Assembly (NCBI GenBank): GCA_029776065.1
Contig: JARVJP010000007.1
Location: 1 to 56,915, forward strand
DNA length: 56,915 bases
Direction: 5' to 3'
Source: Nitrososphaeria archaeon
GTDB lineage: Archaea; Thermoproteota; Nitrososphaeria; JACIWG01
This document shows positions 4,361-56,915 of the stretch, piece by piece (position 1 is the stretch's first letter; each line of letters opens with the position of its first letter). The position numbers and the translations under genes are program-made. Under the pieces are notes generated by a model. That model did no database searches. It was not told where the DNA came from and worked only from the letters and a program-made list of their open reading frames with translations.

Positions 4361-5902
4361 TTATGATGGAATCTCTCTGAAAAGATGTTTTAAACTTTGA
4401 TAAAGCATTTTATAAACCTTGTTATAACTTTTGTCATAGAATGTCACATTTTCTTTGATAGGGTTATATTCAGCCCTTATAGTAATCATTTTATCTGCCG
4501 CTTCTAAAACATCTTTGTAGAAGACGGAAGTTGCTGCTAAGATAGCTGCCCCTAAAGCTGTGTTTTCTTCTGTTTGAGTTACTCTAACTTTTTTGTTGCA
4601 TATATCAGCAATGATCTGACACCAAAGAGGACTTTTCGCTCCCCCTCCATAAACTCTTATTTCATCAACATGTGTCTTTGAAGCATTTTCTAGGTTTTCT
4701 AAGTTAAGACGTACCTCATAAGCCACTCCTTCAATTATTGCTCGAATAAGGTGCTCCCGCCTATGAGAACCTGTGAACCCAAAAATTACCCCTCTTGCGC
4801 TAGTGTCGTAATAAGGTGAGAAAGCCCCAAGCCAGTATGGAACAACAAAGAGGCCAAGAGCGCCTGGTGGTGCTTTTTTTGCTTCGATCATTAATATATC
4901 ATATGGGCTTATTTTGAGTCTTTCTGCTACTTCTGTTTCCGATTGCCCAAAGTTTTCTTTAAACCATTTAAGAGTATATGCTCCCCCTCCTATACCATTC
5001 TCTGCGATATATTTTCGAGGAACGCATGCTACCCTAAGCCAATATCTTAATTGTGGGTCAATAATTGGGCTATCTAAAAAGGTCTCCAGAATAACCGACG
5101 TTCCAAGGTTCAGACTTGCAACACCTACTTTTGTCACGCCTGTACCTAAACCTCCACATTGCTGATCTCCTCCACCAGCAATAACAGGAATTCCTTCTGG
5201 TAGCGTGGTTTCCTCAGAAAATTTCTTAGTTACAGTCCCTAACACTCCTCCTGGGGGAATTGTTGTTGGAAGCTTTGATATAGGAATCTGGCAAATTTCA
5301 AGAAGTTTTGATGACCATTCAAATTTATTGATATCTAAGAGTTGAGTCGTACAAGCACTAGCCCATGAAGTCCTAAATTCGCCTGTTAATAAAAATGTTA
5401 AGAAATCTGATACAAGAAGAAACTTGTGGGCGCTATCAAAAACTTCTCTCTCATGTTCCTTTATCCATAAAATTTTAGGAAGAGACCAACCAGGGGAAGG
5501 AGGTACTCCTGTAATTTTTGTGATTTCTTCTGGATCAAGTTGTCTCTTTAGCCACTCTACTTGTTCCTCTGCTCTGGTATCGAACCATAAGAGTGCCCTT
5601 CTGAGTGGTGTGCCATTTTCATCGACTGGTAAAATCGTCTCCCTTTGGTGTGTTATACCTAAAGCTTTTATACTACTTGGTGATAGACCACAATCCCTTA
5701 TTAAACATTTTATTGTTGTTTTAAGTGCTTTTGCCCAGTCATTTGCATCTTGTTCAGCCCAACCAATGTTCGGATAAAAAGTTTCGTAAGGTGTTCTAGA
5801 CTGTGCTATCTCATTACCCCATTTATCAAAAATTACTGCTCTAAGATCGGATGTTCCAGCATCCAAACCAATAACATATTCTTTTTCGCTCACTTTGCTC
5901 AC
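4361..5902 (-). CDS. FGGY-family carbohydrate kinase (xylulokinase-like)
   Basis: ATP-dependent sugar or polyol kinase, 513 residues, normal length for the FGGY family. The N-terminal phosphate motif GLDAGTS (12-18), the catalytic aspartate in GGGDQQCGG (Asp246), GGGAKSPLW and the ENTALGAAILAA adenine region are all present. Two in-frame GTG starts exist. The first (5902) directly follows the upstream stop; the second (5893) sits 5 bases after AGGTGA, a good Shine-Dalgarno sequence that overlaps the first GTG, so 5893 may be the true start. It forms a tight pair with the dehydrogenase at 5903-6946, fitting oxidation then phosphorylation of one substrate. I cannot say which ketose or which hydroxyl. 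Confidence 0.92.
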   Translation of the reverse strand: MSKVSEKEYVIGLDAGTSDLRAVIFDKWGNEIAQSRTPYETFYPNIGWAEQDANDWAKALKTTIKCLIRDCGLSPSSIKALGITHQRETILPVDENGTPLRRALLWFDTRAEEQVEWLKRQLDPEEITKITGVPPSPGWSLPKILWIKEHEREVFDSAHKFLLVSDFLTFLLTGEFRTSWASACTTQLLDINKFEWSSKLLEICQIPISKLPTTIPPGGVLGTVTKKFSEETTLPEGIPVIAGGGDQQCGGLGTGVTKVGVASLNLGTSVILETFLDSPIIDPQLRYWLRVACVPRKYIAENGIGGGAYTLKWFKENFGQSETEVAERLKISPYDILMIEAKKAPPGALGLFVVPYWLGAFSPYYDTSARGVIFGFTGSHRREHLIRAIIEGVAYEVRLNLENLENASKTHVDEIRVYGGGAKSPLWCQIIADICNKKVRVTQTEENTALGAAILAATSVFYKDVLEAADKMITIRAEYNPIKENVTFYDKSYNKVYKMLYQSLKHLFREIPS

Positions 5903-13229: not shown

Positions 13230-14047
13230 TAGAAATGAAACTCAAAACATTAATCTTCTATATATTGCTTGCTATATCTTTGCTCTTTTTCATTTACCCA
13301 GTGTACTTCGCGTTCAATTTGGCTTTCATGCCGAGAGCTGCCATCTTCCAGTTGCCTCCAAACTACATATTCCAACCGACTCTTGACAACTTTGTAAAAG
13401 TAATCAACTCATGGGAATTCTCAAAGTATCTGATGAATAGCACGATTGTTTCCATCCTCTCTGTAACTTTGTCTCTGATAGTAGGTCTCCCAGCGACCTA
13501 CGCTCTTGTACGTTACGACATTCCGAAGAAAGGGACTATCCTATCAATGATCCTAGGTATAAGATTCTTACCCATAACTTCTGTAGCTATCCCGTTTTAC
13601 ATCATGTTCGTTAGCCTCGGCTTATACGATACTATGTTTGGGTTGCTCTTGACATATATACTCTTAAACCTACCATTCATCGTTTGGTTGATGCGTGGTT
13701 ACATAATGGATGTGCCAACAGAACTAGAAGAATCCTACGAAGTTGACGGCTTATCGAAGACACAGGTCTTCCTAAGAATAACCCTCCCACTTGTTTATAA
13801 GGGGCTTCTCGCTACAGTCCTCTTCTGCTTTATCTTCACTTGGAATGAATTTGGAATCGCCCTTCTATTAACTGGGACGAACGCGAGGACTCTACCTGTT
13901 CAATCTCTGCAGTTTGTTGCCTCACTTGGGTTGGATTGGGGTGCGTTATGCGCGGCAGCAGTACTCATCGCTTCACCTATGATCGTCTTCGGTCTTCTAA
14001 TCAGGCGTTATCTGATCAGAGGGCTTAGTCTAGGCGCTGTTCGATGA
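13226..14047 (+). CDS. sugar ABC transporter permease, MalG type (second pair)
   Basis: Permease of about 273 residues with EAA loop DVPTELEESYEVDGLSKTQV followed by ITLPLVYKG and a terminal RRYLIRGLSLGAVR tail that matches the ending of the other MalG-type protein. The reading frame is open from 13139, but the credible start is the GTG at 13226, which overlaps the upstream TGA in a GTGA junction (or ATG 13235). The longer start would overlap the previous gene by about 90 bases. Its stop overlaps the kinase start (ATGA), so expression is translationally coupled. Confidence 0.93.
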   Translation: MIEMKLKTLIFYILLAISLLFFIYPVYFAFNLAFMPRAAIFQLPPNYIFQPTLDNFVKVINSWEFSKYLMNSTIVSILSVTLSLIVGLPATYALVRYDIPKKGTILSMILGIRFLPITSVAIPFYIMFVSLGLYDTMFGLLLTYILLNLPFIVWLMRGYIMDVPTELEESYEVDGLSKTQVFLRITLPLVYKGLLATVLFCFIFTWNEFGIALLLTGTNARTLPVQSLQFVASLGLDWGALCAAAVLIASPMIVFGLLIRRYLIRGLSLGAVR

Positions 14048-15540
14048 GTTTCATCGGAGTAGATATAGGTAGCCAAAGCACCAAAACCTGTGTTGTAAAC
14101 ACGGAGGGAGAAGTCACAGCTTCCTCCTCCTTTTCTTATGAGATCTGCTATCCTAACCCTGGATGGGCGGAGGAAGACGCAAATCTCTGGTGGAAAGGAG
14201 TAAAGGAAACATTGAAGGAAGTTCTAAAGAAGGTTCCTGCTAAAGATATACAAGCGATCGCTTTCAGCGGGCAGTCTCCAACAATACTACCACTTGATAA
14301 AAATGGAGATCCTTTAATGCCTGCTATTATTTGGTGTGACTCTAGATCGATAGAGGAATGTAATATTGTAGATCGGAGGGTTGGAGGGAAAAAGGTTTTT
14401 GAAGTGAGTGGGAACAGAATAGATCCTTACTTTGGGGGGAACAAGTTCTTCTGGTTAAAGAGGAACCGCCCTGAAGTCTACTCGAAAACATGGAAGGTCT
14501 GCCAATCACACGGGTACCCTATCTTTAAGCTTACAGGCGAGATGGTTACCGATTATTCTGTAGCTGGGTTATGCTCCCCAATATATGACTACTCAAAGAA
14601 AAGGTGGTCGGATGAACTATGCAGTGAGCTAGGCCTCGACATTAGCATGTTGCCTGATATTATGCCTTCATCAGCAGTAGTAGGTGAAGTGACGCACGAT
14701 GCAGCGGAAGAAGTTGGTTTGAAGAAAGGGACACCTGTTGTGGTCGGTGGGGGTGATTTTGCCACATCGATTCTATCGGTTGGAACCGTGGGAGAGGGAG
14801 ATGCCTCAATAATGCTCGGTACAGCATGTAACTTTATCATACCTATGTCATCGCCAAAGTTTGATGAGAGAATACTTGGTACGAGCCATGTCGTCAAAGA
14901 TACCTATGTTGTCATCGGCTCATCGTATGGAGGAGGCATCTTAAGGTGGATGAAGGATCAGATCCTAGACGCTGAAGCCAGCTCCCTACAGGATAGTGGC
15001 ATATCTTTATACGAGTTCATGGATAGCAAAGCGTCAAATCTGCCTGCAGGGTCAGAAAGTCTAATATTGTTCCCTTATTTTGTCGGTGGGCTTACACCGA
15101 TCTGGAATCCTCATGCTAGAGGTGTCTACTTTGGGCTGACCCCAAAGCATAACAAGGCTCATCTTTATAGGGCTGTTCTTGAAGCGGTGGGATACTCTTT
15201 CCGGTACACCGCGAATATTGTAGGTGAGAAGGGGATACATCCTAAGATGATCTATGGTGTTGATGGAGGTGCTAGAAGTAGGCTCTGGCGTCAAGTGTTA
15301 TCTGATATTCTAGATATTCCTATTGCCTATGTCAAGGATAATATAGGTGCTCCTGTTGGCGATGCAGCACTTGCGGGGGTGGGTATTGGGCAGTTCAAAG
15401 ACGAGGCAGTAGTTAAGGACTGGGTTAAAGTCAGTGAAGTGAACTACCCTGATAAAGAAGCTCATGAAAGGTATGGAAAGTATTATCACATATACAGAGA
15501 ACTGTATGAGCGGATAAAAGACCTGTTTGCTCTGTTATGA
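14044..15540 (+). CDS. FGGY-family carbohydrate kinase (xylulokinase-like)
   Basis: ATP-dependent sugar kinase, 498 residues, last gene of the transport operon and overlapping the permease by 4 bases. Visible features: GVDIGSQSTKT at the N terminus, FSGQS, catalytic aspartate in GGGDFAT (Asp238), DGGARSRLW and the C-terminal APVGDAALAG adenine-binding region. The physical coupling to the permeases suggests that it phosphorylates the imported substrate or its first oxidation product. It is clearly distinct from the other two FGGY kinases in the window. The best general guess is a pentulose or tetrulose kinase. Confidence 0.92.
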   Translation: MSFIGVDIGSQSTKTCVVNTEGEVTASSSFSYEICYPNPGWAEEDANLWWKGVKETLKEVLKKVPAKDIQAIAFSGQSPTILPLDKNGDPLMPAIIWCDSRSIEECNIVDRRVGGKKVFEVSGNRIDPYFGGNKFFWLKRNRPEVYSKTWKVCQSHGYPIFKLTGEMVTDYSVAGLCSPIYDYSKKRWSDELCSELGLDISMLPDIMPSSAVVGEVTHDAAEEVGLKKGTPVVVGGGDFATSILSVGTVGEGDASIMLGTACNFIIPMSSPKFDERILGTSHVVKDTYVVIGSSYGGGILRWMKDQILDAEASSLQDSGISLYEFMDSKASNLPAGSESLILFPYFVGGLTPIWNPHARGVYFGLTPKHNKAHLYRAVLEAVGYSFRYTANIVGEKGIHPKMIYGVDGGARSRLWRQVLSDILDIPIAYVKDNIGAPVGDAALAGVGIGQFKDEAVVKDWVKVSEVNYPDKEAHERYGKYYHIYRELYERIKDLFALL

Positions 15541-18259: not shown

Positions 18260-19576
18260 GTGAATTTGTTGAACTATGTTGATCGAACACTGAGGTCGCA
18301 TAAACTGTTTGAGAAGGCTAAGGAGTATATTCCAGGGGGCTCAGCTTATGCGATACGTTACTTCGAGCCTTATCCATTTTATGTGTCAAAGACAAAAGGT
18401 AGTAAGATTTGGGACGTGGATGGAAATGAATATGTTGACTTTTGGCTCTGCCATTTTGGTGCGATCTTTGGACACTGCTACAAACCAGTGATGGCTGCTG
18501 TAAAGGAGCAGCTTGACTTTGGAGCTCATCTTGGGTGGTGTAACGAATGGGAGGTCAAGTGGGCAGAAGTTGTCTGTAAATGGTTTAATGCTGAAAGAGT
18601 GAAGCCTGCAAATAGTGGTACTGAATCGAACATGTACGCAATAGGATTAGCTAAAGCGTTCACAGGGAAACACAAGGTGGGGAAGATGGAAGGCGGGTGG
18701 CATGGTGGATTTAATAATTTAAATAGAGCGGTAAACTACCCATATGATAAACCAGCTGCCCTCAACTTACCTATTTCAGATGACCTGATTCCACTTCCAT
18801 TTAATGATCTAGATGGTGTGATTAAGCGGATAGGGAATGAGGAATTAGCGTGCGTCATAGTTGAGCCTGTTCTAGGCTCAGCAGGCTTTATTCCCGCTGA
18901 AAAAGAATTCCTTAAGGGTCTAAGAGAGTATTGTGATAGAAAAAACACCCTCTTGATCTTTGATGAGGTAATAACCGGCTTCAAGCATCCAAATGGCTTA
19001 CAAGGCTATTATGGAGTTAAACCAGACCTTACAACAATGGGTAAAACGGTGGGCGGGCAATACTTTGCTGGTGCAGGAGGAATATGTGGCCGAGCCGATA
19101 TTATGACCCTGTTGGATCAGACAAAAAGACGAAACTTCTGGGAACGGTCAGCTCATGGTGGAACCTTTGTAGGAAACGCGTTAACGATGCGTGCAGGATA
19201 TGTCACAATAAGTGAGCTCTTTAAGAGGAAGGATGAAGTATACGAACATGTCAACTCACTAAGCTCATTTGCAGTAAGAGAACTAAACCGTGCGATCGAA
19301 GAAAGCAAATTTGAAGCTTATATTACAGGTGCTCTATCATTGTTTGGCCTTCACTTTACAAAGGAGAAACCTGTAAACGGTGAAACCGCAGAGAGAACAA
19401 AGGATAGGGAACTAAGTAGAGCCCTCTTCACCTTCCTACTTGATAAAGGGGTTGCTTACTTAACACCTAACACACCCCATTTCACCGTGTCCTTTGCACA
19501 CACACAGAGCGATGTTGAGAGGCTAGTCTTTGGGATCGAAGAGTTTCTCGCTAACGCTAAGGGAATTAACCAATAG
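18260..19576 (+). CDS. class III pyridoxal-phosphate aminotransferase (GSA-aminomutase-like)
   Basis: Aspartate aminotransferase superfamily, class III, about 435 residues. Visible elements: NSGTES, GGWHGGFN, the cofactor aspartate in IFDEVITGF, the Schiff-base lysine in TTMGKTVGGQYF and HGGTFVGNALTM. It resembles glutamate-1-semialdehyde aminomutase, but its setting beside an imine-type dehydrogenase and sugar genes argues against a haem role. GTG 18260 follows the upstream stop directly. AGGTGA (18258-18263) overlaps that GTG and is well placed for TTG 18269, so translation may begin there. The same arrangement occurs at 5893-5905. Confidence 0.85.
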   Translation: MNLLNYVDRTLRSHKLFEKAKEYIPGGSAYAIRYFEPYPFYVSKTKGSKIWDVDGNEYVDFWLCHFGAIFGHCYKPVMAAVKEQLDFGAHLGWCNEWEVKWAEVVCKWFNAERVKPANSGTESNMYAIGLAKAFTGKHKVGKMEGGWHGGFNNLNRAVNYPYDKPAALNLPISDDLIPLPFNDLDGVIKRIGNEELACVIVEPVLGSAGFIPAEKEFLKGLREYCDRKNTLLIFDEVITGFKHPNGLQGYYGVKPDLTTMGKTVGGQYFAGAGGICGRADIMTLLDQTKRRNFWERSAHGGTFVGNALTMRAGYVTISELFKRKDEVYEHVNSLSSFAVRELNRAIEESKFEAYITGALSLFGLHFTKEKPVNGETAERTKDRELSRALFTFLLDKGVAYLTPNTPHFTVSFAHTQSDVERLVFGIEEFLANAKGINQ

Positions 19577-19603: not shown

Positions 19604-21052
19604 TTAGAGTTTATCGGCAAGCGCTTCAACAACTCTATTATACTTCTGAACCAGTTGATCATAGGCTGCCTTGTTTTCGAGGTTTGGTTTAAATTCAGAT
19701 CTTATCTTTACCGTGCGACCTACTAGATCGTCTATGCTCTGTTTACCGATCGCCCAAGCAGCGATCAAGGCCGAACCAAGCGCGGAATCCGGTTCCTCAA
19801 CTACTTTAACCTCCTTTCCAAGAGCGTCCGCGACTATCTGCATGAAAAGAGGGTTCTTCGACGCGCCTCCGCTCGCTCTTAGGTCATAAAACGTGGTCCC
19901 TGTAACCTCTTCAACCACGGAGAGCATAAGCCTTAATGTCATACTGCTTCCTTCAAGGAGGCTTCTAAATATGTGCCCAGGGCTTATGTTCTTTTCGCTC
20001 AAGCCTATGAAGAAGCCTTTAACCTGGGGGTACGTCCTCGGAACTCTCACACCATACCACTCACTACAAGCCATTACCCCATCTGATCCTGGTGGTACAG
20101 CCTTCGCGGCATCAGTTAATTCGTCAAGGCTCATCTTCATCATCTTACTCATAGAATCAAACGAAGCAGTACCTGCGTTTGTAAACCCTCCCGCCAGATA
20201 CGCATTGCCCACATATGTCTTATAATAAAATCGACCATGTTCATCAGGTGACAGCTTGTTGACCACCGCATGGACAGTCAAGGAAGTTCCTATAGTGAAG
20301 TTTGCTTGACCTGGCTTAAGCGCGCCAGAAGTGATGTCTCCTGCGCTGGCGTCGGTGACGCCGTTAACTATTGGTGTACCTTGAGGCAATCCTAACTTTG
20401 CAGCTTCTTGGTTTGTATAGCCAACTATTCCCCCTATTGGTTTTATTTCAGGCATTATTTCTAAAGGTAAATCCACATCTTCGTACACCTTCTTCAGGTA
20501 ACCTAGTCCTTCTAACAGAGCATGTGATTTTCCAGCAGAATTTGACGAAGTCGCGATTGAGTCTGAGAGCTTAAAGACCGCGTAGTCGTTTTCGTGTAGA
20601 AGGTGCCCGACTTTATTAAAGTGTTCAAAGTTCTTTTTAAGCCAAAGTAACTTCGGTATCACAAGTTGTGGGACTATTGGCAAGAATTTTTCAAAGTCCC
20701 TAGCAGTATCACTCCTCTCTCTAAGCTCTTTTGCCTCGGTCTTCCCTCTACTGTCATTATACATGATTAAATTATAAAATTCTTTGTTGTCCTTATCGAT
20801 TAATGTGAATGTACCACTTGTTGAATCGACGCATACAGCTGTGATGTGACCTAATGATTTTAAATGGGTAAGTGCTTCCTTTATTCGCTCCCAAAGCACT
20901 ACTGCACTTCTTTCTGCAAAATCTTCTTTTGGTTGGATTATAAGGTCGTAAACAGGTACACTTGTTTTTTCAACAACTTCACCGTTTTCTGATATAATAG
21001 TTGCTTTAATGTTCTTAGTTCCAATATCTAAACCTAGATAAAGTTCTCCCAT
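19604..21052 (-). CDS. FGGY-family kinase, D-ribulokinase (SePSK/AtXK-1)-like
   Basis: Sugar kinase of about 482 residues. It has GLDIGTKNIKA at the N terminus, the motifs VDSTSGTF and MYNDSR that I associate with the SePSK/AtXK-1 D-ribulokinase branch, the catalytic aspartate in NGVTDASAGD, SGGASKNPLF and DSALGSALIAA. Predicted product is ribulose 5-phosphate or a related ketose phosphate. It is back to back with the RuBisCO gene across about 150 bases with a TATA box in each direction. The reading frame opens with GTG at 21061, but ATG 21052 is the better start, about 36 bases after a minus-strand CTTATATAG (21084-21092). Confidence 0.85.
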   Translation of the reverse strand: MGELYLGLDIGTKNIKATIISENGEVVEKTSVPVYDLIIQPKEDFAERSAVVLWERIKEALTHLKSLGHITAVCVDSTSGTFTLIDKDNKEFYNLIMYNDSRGKTEAKELRERSDTARDFEKFLPIVPQLVIPKLLWLKKNFEHFNKVGHLLHENDYAVFKLSDSIATSSNSAGKSHALLEGLGYLKKVYEDVDLPLEIMPEIKPIGGIVGYTNQEAAKLGLPQGTPIVNGVTDASAGDITSGALKPGQANFTIGTSLTVHAVVNKLSPDEHGRFYYKTYVGNAYLAGGFTNAGTASFDSMSKMMKMSLDELTDAAKAVPPGSDGVMACSEWYGVRVPRTYPQVKGFFIGLSEKNISPGHIFRSLLEGSSMTLRLMLSVVEEVTGTTFYDLRASGGASKNPLFMQIVADALGKEVKVVEEPDSALGSALIAAWAIGKQSIDDLVGRTVKIRSEFKPNLENKAAYDQLVQKYNRVVEALADKL

Positions 21053-21061
21053 TAGAAACAC

Positions 21062-21207
21062 TGAAAAATGTTAAAGAGCATCTCTATATAAGTTTTAAAT
21101 CCATCGCAGTAACCGATCTGATGACAAGGATTTAATTTACTATATTTGATATATTCAAAAAAGCATGTTTATATAATAGAAGCATTAACTTTTTGGGGCG
21201 AATTTTC
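21062..21207. promoter_or_regulatory. divergent promoter region between ribulokinase-like gene and RuBisCO
   Basis: Two TATA elements face away from each other: CTTATATAG on the minus strand at 21084-21092 for the kinase, and TTTATATAA on the plus strand at 21168-21176 for RuBisCO. The sequence between them (about 21093-21167) is A/T-rich and could hold a shared operator. It contains TATATTTGATATATT, a loosely symmetric stretch at 21141-21155. The layout implies co-regulation of kinase and RuBisCO. Confidence 0.55.
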
Positions 21208-22503
21208 ATGTCTGAGCGAAGCTTTAATGTCTTCACAGCAAGGGCTGAACAGATCGATCCAGAAGCTAACATAATCGCAACGTACTACGTTGAAGGAAAA
21301 GATATATCCATCGTGGAGGCTGGTGTAAAGATCGCTGCTGAAGAGTCGATCGGCACATGGACCGAAGTGTCAACGGCAACAGAATGGATCGTAAAGAATT
21401 TACCAGCAAAGGTCTTCGAACATAAAGTTCAAGATAAAAACACGGGTATAATCAAGATAGCTTACCCTAACACCCTCTTCGACTTCGAAACCGGAGGGAT
21501 CCCCCACATTCTAAGCATCGTCGCTGGGAACCTCTTTGGGTCTAGCTCTCTTCAGAATGTAAGGCTGCTCGACTTAGAGTTTCCGTCAGAGTTTGTTTCA
21601 CTCTTTAAGGGGCCAAAGTTTGGAATTGAAGGGGTAAGGAAGCTCATTGGTACACTTGACGATCGAAGACCACATCTGGGAACTATAATAAAACCAAAAG
21701 TAGGATTGAACCCTAAAGAAACAGCGAATGTCGCCTACGAGGCTGCGATGGGGGGTGTTGACTTCATAAAAGACGATGAAACGTTAACCAATCAAAAGTT
21801 TTGTCCTCTCGCAGATAGGGTCACCCATGTTATGACCGCTCTTGATAGGGTCAAGTCGGAGACGGGTAGAACGGTTTTATATTCCCCTGATGTCACTACA
21901 GAGACCTATAAACTAAGAGATCTGGCTCAAGTTGCCTTAGACCATGGTGCAAATGCTCTTATGGTGGATGTCATCCCATGTGGATTCTCTGCTGTAAGGC
22001 TCCTAGCTGAGGACCCTTCAATAAAGGTTCCAATACACGTTCATCGATGTATGCATGCTGCTATGACGAGAAACCCCAAACACGGTATCTCCATGATGGT
22101 GATATCAAAGCTTGTGAGGCTCGCAGGTGGTGACCAGTTTCATACTGGTACTGCTGCTGGAAAGATGGGTGGCAAAGAGAAGAAGATTGAGGAACTGATA
22201 TCGATAAACGACTTTCTTAAAGGAAGGTTCTATAGGTTGAAGGCTACATTCCCTGTTGCATCAGGGGGTGTTCACCCAACACTTGTACCAATAAACGTCC
22301 TTACACTTGGAAAAGATCTTGTTATTCAAGCAGGTGGAGGCATTCACGGTCACCCAGAGGGGACAAGGGTAGGTGCCACTGCTATGCGTCAAGCGATAGA
22401 CGCGGCTGTAAATGGTGTGCCATTAGAAGAGTATGCTAAGACTCACAGAGAATTAGCTGTTGCAATAAAACATTGGGGTATGAAGTTCGTATCAGATGAC
22501 TAG
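21208..22503 (+). CDS. rbcL: ribulose-1,5-bisphosphate carboxylase/oxygenase, archaeal form III
   Basis: RuBisCO large subunit, 431 residues from ATG 21208 (a TTG five codons earlier is less likely, given TATA at 21168-21176). All catalytic residues I can place are present: Glu45, Thr50-Trp51, Asn108, IKPK (Lys162 and Lys164), carbamylated Lys188 with Asp190-Glu191 in GGVDFIKDDE, His279-Arg280 in HVHRCMH, His312 in FHTGT, Lys319, Ser352-Gly-Gly in VASGGVHP and QAGGGIHGHP. This is form III rather than a RuBisCO-like form IV protein. No AMP phosphorylase or ribose-1,5-bisphosphate isomerase is in the window; the neighbour is a ribulokinase-like gene. Predicted reaction: RuBP plus CO2 to two 3-phosphoglycerate. 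Confidence 0.96.
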   Translation: MSERSFNVFTARAEQIDPEANIIATYYVEGKDISIVEAGVKIAAEESIGTWTEVSTATEWIVKNLPAKVFEHKVQDKNTGIIKIAYPNTLFDFETGGIPHILSIVAGNLFGSSSLQNVRLLDLEFPSEFVSLFKGPKFGIEGVRKLIGTLDDRRPHLGTIIKPKVGLNPKETANVAYEAAMGGVDFIKDDETLTNQKFCPLADRVTHVMTALDRVKSETGRTVLYSPDVTTETYKLRDLAQVALDHGANALMVDVIPCGFSAVRLLAEDPSIKVPIHVHRCMHAAMTRNPKHGISMMVISKLVRLAGGDQFHTGTAAGKMGGKEKKIEELISINDFLKGRFYRLKATFPVASGGVHPTLVPINVLTLGKDLVIQAGGGIHGHPEGTRVGATAMRQAIDAAVNGVPLEEYAKTHRELAVAIKHWGMKFVSDD

Positions 22504-36144: not shown

Positions 36145-36807
36145 GTGGGACGTTTGGAAGATGTTGAAAAAAATTTGAGAGAAAGACTTACAAAAGTAGC
36201 ACAATGTCTATGGGATGATGGTTTAGTTAGTGGGACTGCTGGCAACATTAGTGCGAGAATACCAGGAACTAACAAGTGCATAATTAAACCATCTGGCTTT
36301 ACTATGTGTGAACTTAAACCTGAGGACTTTATTATCGTTGACATTTATACGCTATCTGTCTTAGAAGGTAAACATAAACCGTCTATAGAAACACCCTTTC
36401 ACACAACCATGTATCGAATAAGATCCGATGTTGGAGGTGTTGTTCATACGCACTCGCATTATGCGACAGTCTTTAGTATAGCTGGTGTAGAACTTATTCC
36501 AATGGGGATGGTTCTATACTTTGCACCCAAGTTAGCAAAGGGTGTAGGGATTGCAAAATATGGTGATCCAGGTACAGAGCAACTCGCGTCAAATATCGGT
36601 GTTGCATTAGAAACTAAATATGCTGCTTTGATGCCTCATCACGGTGCGATAGCTGTTGGAAAAGACGTAGAGGAAGCCTACGTTAATGCGAAGATGGTAG
36701 AGGAATTAGCTAAACTCCAATATGAAGTGATGCAGATAGGGAAACCCCAGCCCTTACCTGAAGAAACCTTAAAGAGTTTCATAGATTCAAAGCATGGTAA
36801 AGTGTAG
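36145..36807 (+). CDS. class II aldolase/adducin family protein (fuculose-phosphate aldolase-like)
   Basis: Zinc-dependent aldolase of 220 residues. It shows GTAGNISARIPG (phosphate and backbone loop), the Glu in SIETPFHTTMY, the zinc histidines in HTHSHYATVFS and the third zinc His in MPHHGAIAVG, which together indicate an active enzyme. Likely cleaves a short sugar phosphate to DHAP plus an aldehyde, or acts on a related compound. Start GTG 36145. It adds to the aldolase set at 35246 and 7061. Confidence 0.88.
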   Translation: MGRLEDVEKNLRERLTKVAQCLWDDGLVSGTAGNISARIPGTNKCIIKPSGFTMCELKPEDFIIVDIYTLSVLEGKHKPSIETPFHTTMYRIRSDVGGVVHTHSHYATVFSIAGVELIPMGMVLYFAPKLAKGVGIAKYGDPGTEQLASNIGVALETKYAALMPHHGAIAVGKDVEEAYVNAKMVEELAKLQYEVMQIGKPQPLPEETLKSFIDSKHGKV

Positions 36808-56036: not shown

Positions 56037-56915
56037 GTGTCGGCAACAGCAATCCCAGCTGTTACCACTGCTGGGCAACCTGTTTTGATTTTAAAAGAGG
56101 GCTCAACACAAACTCGAGGTAGGGAAGCGCAGAGAAACAATATCACTGCTGCAAAGTTAGTCGCTGAAATCGTCAGAACCTCACTCGGTCCGCGTGGTAT
56201 GGATAAGATGCTTGTGGATAGCCTTGGTGATGTGACGATAACCAACGATGGCGCCACTATCTTGAAGGAGATCGATGTGCAGCATCCTGCTGCCAAGGCC
56301 ATGGTGGAGATTTCCAAAGCTACGGATAACGAGGTCGGTGATGGCACTACGTCAGCAGTCGTGTTAGCAGGTGCTTTACTTGAAAAAGCTGAAGAACTTA
56401 TCGATAAAGACGTGCACCCTACGGTCATCGTTGACGGATACAAGAAGGCAACGGAGAAAGCTAAAGAAATACTTAATGCAATATCAATAAAGGTTGATCC
56501 AAAGGATAGAGAATGGTTGATCAAAGTCGCTAACACAAGTATGGCAACAAAGCTTGTCGCGCAAGAATCCGGCGCTCTCTCTCAAATCATAGTTGATGCT
56601 GTGCTTTCTGTAGTCGAAGAAGTCAACGGCAAACTAAAGGTTGACATCGATAACGTAAAGGTTGAGAAGAAGGCAGGAGGCTCACTACACGATACCAAAC
56701 TGATAAAGGGCATCGTGTTGGATAAGGAGGTTGTGCACAGCGGCATGCCCAAGCGCATCCAAGACGCCAAGATCGCCCTACTCAACTGCCCACTCGAAAT
56801 CGAGAAAACAGAATTTGATGCGAAGATCAACATCAACAACCCTGAGCAGATCAAGATGTTCCTCGACGAGGAGAACAGGATGCTGAAGGCGATGGTGGAC
56901 AAGATCAAGGAGACG
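56037..56915 (+). CDS. thermosome (group II chaperonin) subunit, 3'-truncated
   Basis: N-terminal 293 residues of a thermosome subunit, cut by the window end. Features: [20 protein letters not shown], the conserved [10 protein letters not shown] and DGATILKEI, the ATP motif [15 protein letters not shown] and the apical [17 protein letters not shown]. This appears to be a standard, active subunit with the GDGTT aspartate. Its start GTG 56037 is supported by the Shine-Dalgarno. The last 45 codons use T in the third position only 3 times versus 13 in the first 45. It is a paralogue of the gene at 1-1321, with differing residues throughout. Confidence 0.95.

Follow-up and report, generated by a model that had tools for sequence, protein, structure and literature searches.

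An archaeal clade of FGGY-family kinases found with form III-like RuBisCO, for which D-ribulose is a candidate substrate

The window, by which we mean the whole stretch of 56,915 nucleotides that was analysed, contains two divergently oriented genes: an FGGY-family kinase on the minus strand (19604..21052; 482 aa from ATG) and a form III-like RuBisCO large subunit with intact catalytic residues on the plus strand (21208..22503; 431 aa from ATG). The kinase open reading frame (ORF; 19604-21061, minus strand) starts at the GTG at 21061 or, more likely, at the ATG at 21052, and that of RuBisCO (21193-22503, plus strand) at the TTG at 21193 or, more likely, at the ATG at 21208. The 155 bp between the two ATG codons (21053..21207; 28% GC) contain a TATA box for each gene, CTTATATA for the kinase (21085..21092, minus strand) and TTTATATA for RuBisCO (21168..21175, plus strand), both at -40 to -33 from the respective ATG, in agreement with the preliminary description of a gap of approximately 150 bases with a TATA box on either side. 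When 5000 dinucleotide shuffles of this spacer were scored for TTATATA in the right range, it occurred by chance in 1.3% of them on the RuBisCO side, in 1.0% on the kinase side, and in 0.02% (about 2e-4) on both sides at once, and the symmetry of the paired boxes is real. Given these positions, both genes would be expected to have short leaders. Several other genes of the window are likewise preceded by TATA-like boxes, indicating that these are ordinary archaeal promoters. The spacer also contains a 30-base imperfect direct repeat (73%; 21062-21091 and 21147-21176, 85 bases apart), both copies of which end in TATATAA; it is possibly a candidate regulator site, or a product of chance in AT-rich DNA.

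The surrounding genes form an island of ABC importers, dehydrogenases, aldolases, an aminotransferase and three FGGY kinases, of which the second (XylB-like; 14044..15540, plus strand) and the third (4361..5902, minus strand) fall outside the clade described below. The aminotransferase (18260..19576, plus strand) is a class III enzyme resembling glutamate-1-semialdehyde aminomutase, and a class II aldolase is encoded at 36145-36807, 15 kb from the kinase. At the two contig ends there are ORFs (2-1321 and 56037-56915) that have a common match, a 545-aa protein encoded in a different genome (48% and 68%, respectively), so that these ends hold two paralogues.

The kinase contains the residues D9, T12 and D234 that are expected of FGGY carbohydrate kinases, matched 12 FGGY models of NCBIfam, and retrieved FGGY structures with Foldseek. 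Its score was below the cut-off of every curated FGGY model, the highest being for XylB (TIGR01312; 235.9 bits, cut-off 380.25); the scores for ribulokinase (TIGR01234; 84.3 bits, cut-off 583.25) and FGGY pentulose kinase (TIGR01315; 79.1 bits, cut-off 408.7) were far lower. The top Foldseek matches were XylB-like structures, from a structural model of moderate quality (pLDDT 74.6) with which Foldseek did not tell the FGGY subfamilies apart. Among 398 genomes sampled of the phylum, seven (G399, G036, G233, G216, G060, G292 and G067) encode relatives that are 42-62% identical to the window kinase, and beyond these identity falls to 32% and lower. We refer to the clade formed by the window genome and these seven relatives (8/398 genomes) as K; its members in G399, G233 and G067 also scored below the XylB cut-off. 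A scan of genome contigs gave nearest matches that were merely 21-27% identical, and plasmid-borne matches reached about 28% at most. K is a new and uncharacterised archaeal clade of the known FGGY family.

We placed K in maximum-likelihood trees together with AraB, XylB, LyxK, FucK, RhaB, GlpK and LsrK of E. coli, DarK of E. coli B, SePSK, AtXK-1 and plasmid-borne homologues. K was the sister of the SePSK/AtXK-1 branch, which also contained rhizobial and Streptomyces proteins, and lay outside it. Support for this grouping was 98/95 with one long glycerol-kinase-like row on the SePSK side and 96/90 after the long rows were taken out, and it dropped to 90/83 without both motif blocks, so that the sister relation is likely but not certain. 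The preliminary description had assigned the kinase to the SePSK/AtXK-1 branch itself; this is indeed the nearest branch, and most residues of the SePSK pocket are kept, but the relationship is that of a deep sister with about 21% identity to SePSK. Membership of the SePSK branch was rejected on this tree position, and membership of the XylB, AraB or DarK families on the trees and, where models exist, on the curated cut-offs.

Both motifs reported earlier, VDSTSGTF (20807..20830, minus strand; residues 75-82 from ATG) and MYNDSR (20747..20764, minus strand; residues 97-102 from ATG), are present in the kinase. VDSTSGTF, which includes S79, the counterpart of SePSK Ser72, is the form taken in the window by the DATSGT motif, and this DxTSGT element occurs both in the SePSK group and in K, but not in xylulokinases. 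MYNDSR, in contrast, is a motif of the K clade, and SePSK has LYNQ in the same place. In an alignment of K members, SePSK residues D8, T11, S72, K163, T220 and D221 were kept, and S222 was replaced by Ala. XylB, DarK, FucK, RhaB and GlpK have no lysine counterpart of K163 in this alignment, in which AraB has a histidine beside a lysine at that column; AraB Lys208 has been described as the structural counterpart of SePSK Lys163 (PMC4880283). The ATP hydrolysis of SePSK is raised more by D-ribulose than by four other substrates, and AtXK-1 shows little response to D-ribulose (PMC4880283). The SePSK assay is in itself a weak one. Taken together, the tree position, the pocket residues and the response of SePSK to D-ribulose make a pentulose the best guess, and the kinase is most plausibly a D-ribulose-type pentulokinase with D-ribulose as the leading candidate substrate.

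The RuBisCO gene was the sole PF00016 match in the genome, which is 95.5% complete. All of its catalytic residues (K175, K201, D203, E204, H294, R295, H327, K334 and S379) are intact, by which a RuBisCO-like protein was ruled out. It scored 445.8 bits with the form III model TIGR03326, under the equivalog cut-off of 497.45, as did its relatives in G399 and G216, indicating that it belongs to a divergent clade, the members of which are 57-63% identical to it. In family f8, 15 loci have a member of this clade on one strand between the genes for ribose 1,5-bisphosphate (R15P) isomerase and AMP phosphorylase, and two further RuBisCO loci have the isomerase gene only; these operon RuBisCOs are 57-61% identical to that of the window. 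Because of this position, the clade is, judged by its context, one of AMP-pathway enzymes. The R15P isomerase-RuBisCO-AMP phosphorylase operons of the f8 genomes (L089-L108) are compact, and for the mid-identity RuBisCOs of other families the AMP phosphorylase gene is mostly adjoining on the opposite strand.

In the window genome, matches to AMP phosphorylase and to R15P isomerase were both above the curated cut-offs, so that with RuBisCO all three enzymes of the AMP (pentose bisphosphate) pathway are encoded. A second R15P isomerase/eIF2B-like gene, under the family cut-off, is located at G000:C3:96320-97210. Among the eight K genomes, R15P isomerase was over the cut-off in all eight and AMP phosphorylase in six; the latter was not found in G399 (68% complete) and was not over the cut-off in G233. 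The phosphoribulokinase (PRK) family (PF00485) had no match in the 95.5% complete window genome, on which a PRK-type supply of ribulose bisphosphate (RuBP) was rejected. Six of the other K genomes were likewise without a match, and the one marginal fragment in the remaining genome, G292, is not a convincing PRK. Without this family, there is no known reaction by which the product of a ribulokinase could be turned directly into RuBP in this genome. The proposal of a direct metabolic link without involvement of AMP is therefore not supported as stated, and is contradicted as the default reading by the lack of a PRK match, the presence of AMP phosphorylase and R15P isomerase, and the occurrence of RuBisCO relatives in AMP-pathway operons. 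In a tblastn search with E. coli queries of 400 kb of C3 and the window, about a quarter of the genome, a ribose-5-phosphate isomerase homologue was present, and no homologues of transketolase, transaldolase, the epimerase or phosphoribosyl pyrophosphate (PRPP) synthase were found. Transaldolase and ribulose-phosphate epimerase are missing from most Thermoproteota (PMC12628685), which makes the pentose bisphosphate pathway a natural outlet for pentose carbon.

The explanation that we favour, tentatively and with a probability of about 0.48, is that the K kinase is a pentulokinase, the pentose phosphate product of which reaches RuBisCO through PRPP and AMP. The kinase, an ATP-dependent member of clade K within an island of sugar uptake and catabolism, would most likely convert D-ribulose or a close pentulose to the pentulose 5-phosphate. 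Ribulose 5-phosphate would then pass through ribose 5-phosphate and PRPP, a step that we assume, to AMP, from which AMP phosphorylase would form R15P, R15P isomerase would form RuBP, and RuBisCO would yield two 3-phosphoglycerates. The kinase product would accordingly lie several steps before the RuBisCO substrate and would not be converted to it directly. Where archaea have no functional non-oxidative pentose phosphate pathway, this route would let carbon from pentoses be drained off, and this could account for the company that pentulokinase and RuBisCO genes keep. The clade, the pocket residues, the promoter layout, the RuBisCO active site, the two AMP-pathway genes, the ribose-5-phosphate isomerase homologue, the lack of a PRK-family match and the recurrent linkage described below are read from sequence, and the kinase substrate, its product, the flux and any co-regulation are what we infer. 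We counted against this explanation the Ala at the position of SePSK Ser222, the support of 90/83 without the motif columns, the small number of K genomes, and the lack of a K match in G044, which has a RuBisCO of the K-linked subclade.

The main rival to the pentulokinase explanation is that the kinase is a bystander, belonging to the neighbouring catabolic island and lying next to RuBisCO by chance or through joint transfer. We consider this unlikely, although several aspects of the locus are consistent with it. The window has three FGGY kinases as well as several transporters and dehydrogenases, and K lies beside an aminotransferase gene that is 43-45% identical in three genomes (the window, G399 at L068:6886-8241 and G067 at L077:3693-5099), and in G067 without RuBisCO nearby; no other neighbourhood compared had an aminotransferase at this similarity. 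Nor is the arrangement of the two genes conserved. In G399 they adjoin tail to tail, their ORFs being 2 bp apart, and in G036 K is three genes from RuBisCO, with two ORFs between; a conserved shared promoter was ruled out by these differences in orientation and spacing. In G060 the contig breaks off at the kinase, the surroundings of which are similar to those in G036, and in G216 and G292 the two genes are on separate contigs. Linkage within three genes in two of five genomes, excluding the discovery genome, would however arise by chance with a probability of only about 1e-4. The association of the kinase with RuBisCO thus recurs in G399, in G036 and within one RuBisCO subclade, but the shared promoter gap does not.

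Distribution across genomes also argues against a bystander. The RuBisCO clade of 57-63% identity, counted by hand from the homologue listing over 398 genomes, occurs in 6/8 K genomes versus about 35/398 genomes overall, a co-occurrence with a probability of 7.5e-6 by genome and 1.6e-4 by genus, the genomes being non-independent. The two other K genomes differ in this respect: G233 has K with an ordinary form III RuBisCO, and in G067 the best RuBisCO match (L078:2895-4127) is without R295, H298 and K334 and is probably a RuBisCO-like protein. RuBisCO fragments are found on further contigs of G067. In a quick tree, one RuBisCO subclade (SH-aLRT 97) has K in five of its six members, from families f12, f31, f47 and f57, the exception being G044. 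The gathering of K genomes of four families in this subclade suggests that the K and RuBisCO genes have, to some extent at least, been passed on jointly. The window RuBisCO lies outside this subclade, though the window kinase is closest to that of G399, and the two gene histories are therefore not fully congruent.

Several unrelated FGGY subfamilies adjoin RuBisCO, which favours the bystander explanation. An FGGY kinase is the immediate neighbour in 6/115 RuBisCO-family loci, whereas the local density of FGGY genes would predict 1.2 (P 0.0013), and these six involve several subfamilies; among bona fide RuBisCOs only, the number is four (P 0.03). The enrichment thus exists, but it is modest and mixed in kind. 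The remaining two of the six loci, L081:8333-11215 (G317) and L082:4168-7083 (G356), encode RuBisCO-like proteins without R295 and H298, each on one strand with an FGGY kinase gene 36-42 bp away, in apparent operons; L082 has a class II aldolase close by as well, and these proteins are possibly form IV enzymes that take part in breaking down sugars. In G165, a rhamnulokinase-like FGGY gene (L183:6958-8457) and a form III RuBisCO gene are on the same strand, 145 bp apart. In the literature, we found no open-access paper joining FGGY or related kinases with RuBisCO in archaea.

Less probable still is a route that bypasses RuBisCO, in which the kinase would form a ketose 1-phosphate that an aldolase then splits into dihydroxyacetone phosphate (DHAP) and glycolaldehyde or a homologue. 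Haloarchaea cleave ribulose 1-phosphate in this way (PMC9700705), the kinase genes of rhizobial SePSK-like proteins directly follow a class II aldolase gene, and such an aldolase is encoded in the window and near K in G067. That of the window is however 15 kb away, and in the five remaining K neighbourhoods no such gene was seen next to the kinase. The known 1-kinases, FucK and RhaB, are located elsewhere in the tree.

We regard as very improbable a supply to RuBisCO that avoids AMP, in which the kinase would replace AMP phosphorylase or PRK by phosphorylating either ribose 1-phosphate to R15P or a ribulose phosphate to RuBP. AMP phosphorylase was within 6 kb in 0/10 FGGY-linked RuBisCO-family loci versus 43/115 overall, a contrast that is confounded by family, and in G233, where K occurs together with R15P isomerase and RuBisCO, no AMP phosphorylase was over the cut-off. 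The window genome, however, has its own AMP phosphorylase, and the kinase pocket resembles that of a kinase of free pentuloses. Known ribose 1-phosphate kinases are of the PfkB type, not FGGY, and we know of no FGGY enzyme that accepts a phosphorylated pentose. It does count for this route that ribose 1-phosphate kinases are difficult to spot by sequence (PMC9700705).

These results touch on the question of which sources other than nucleotide salvage supply the form III RuBisCO of archaea. K is a concrete target for assays, as its occurrence follows that of one RuBisCO lineage in several families of archaea and its nearest characterised branch responds to D-ribulose. Pentulokinase activity of the kinase would be an argument that RuBisCO serves some archaea in the breakdown of pentoses; if it acted on a pentose phosphate instead, the RuBisCO substrate could be reached by a new route, and an AMP-free feed would amount to an FGGY-based archaeal supply to RuBisCO independent of both AMP and PRK.

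Compared with known FGGY systems, K is closest to SePSK (Synpcc7942_2462) and AtXK-1 (At2g21370), its sister in the trees, with which it has DxTSGT in common. K differs from SePSK in being longer and in having an FGGY signature region (FFIGLS) that SePSK lacks, in addition to MYND in place of LYNQ and Ala in place of S222. DarK of E. coli B and AraB resemble K in the FGGY fold, in a DxT motif at the same place, and in acting on pentuloses, as predicted for K, but they form a separate, strongly supported clade with about 20% identity, and the kinase is far under the TIGR01234 and TIGR01315 cut-offs. XylB (TIGR01312) is the best-scoring curated family (236 bits) and provides the top Foldseek matches, but K is not in the XylB clade and is missing its substrate-loop motif GQMHG. 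The carboxylating pentose bisphosphate (AMP) pathway of Thermococcus uses the same three enzymes as are encoded in the window genome, where, unlike in Thermococcus, the RuBisCO gene adjoins an FGGY kinase and not the genes for AMP phosphorylase and R15P isomerase.
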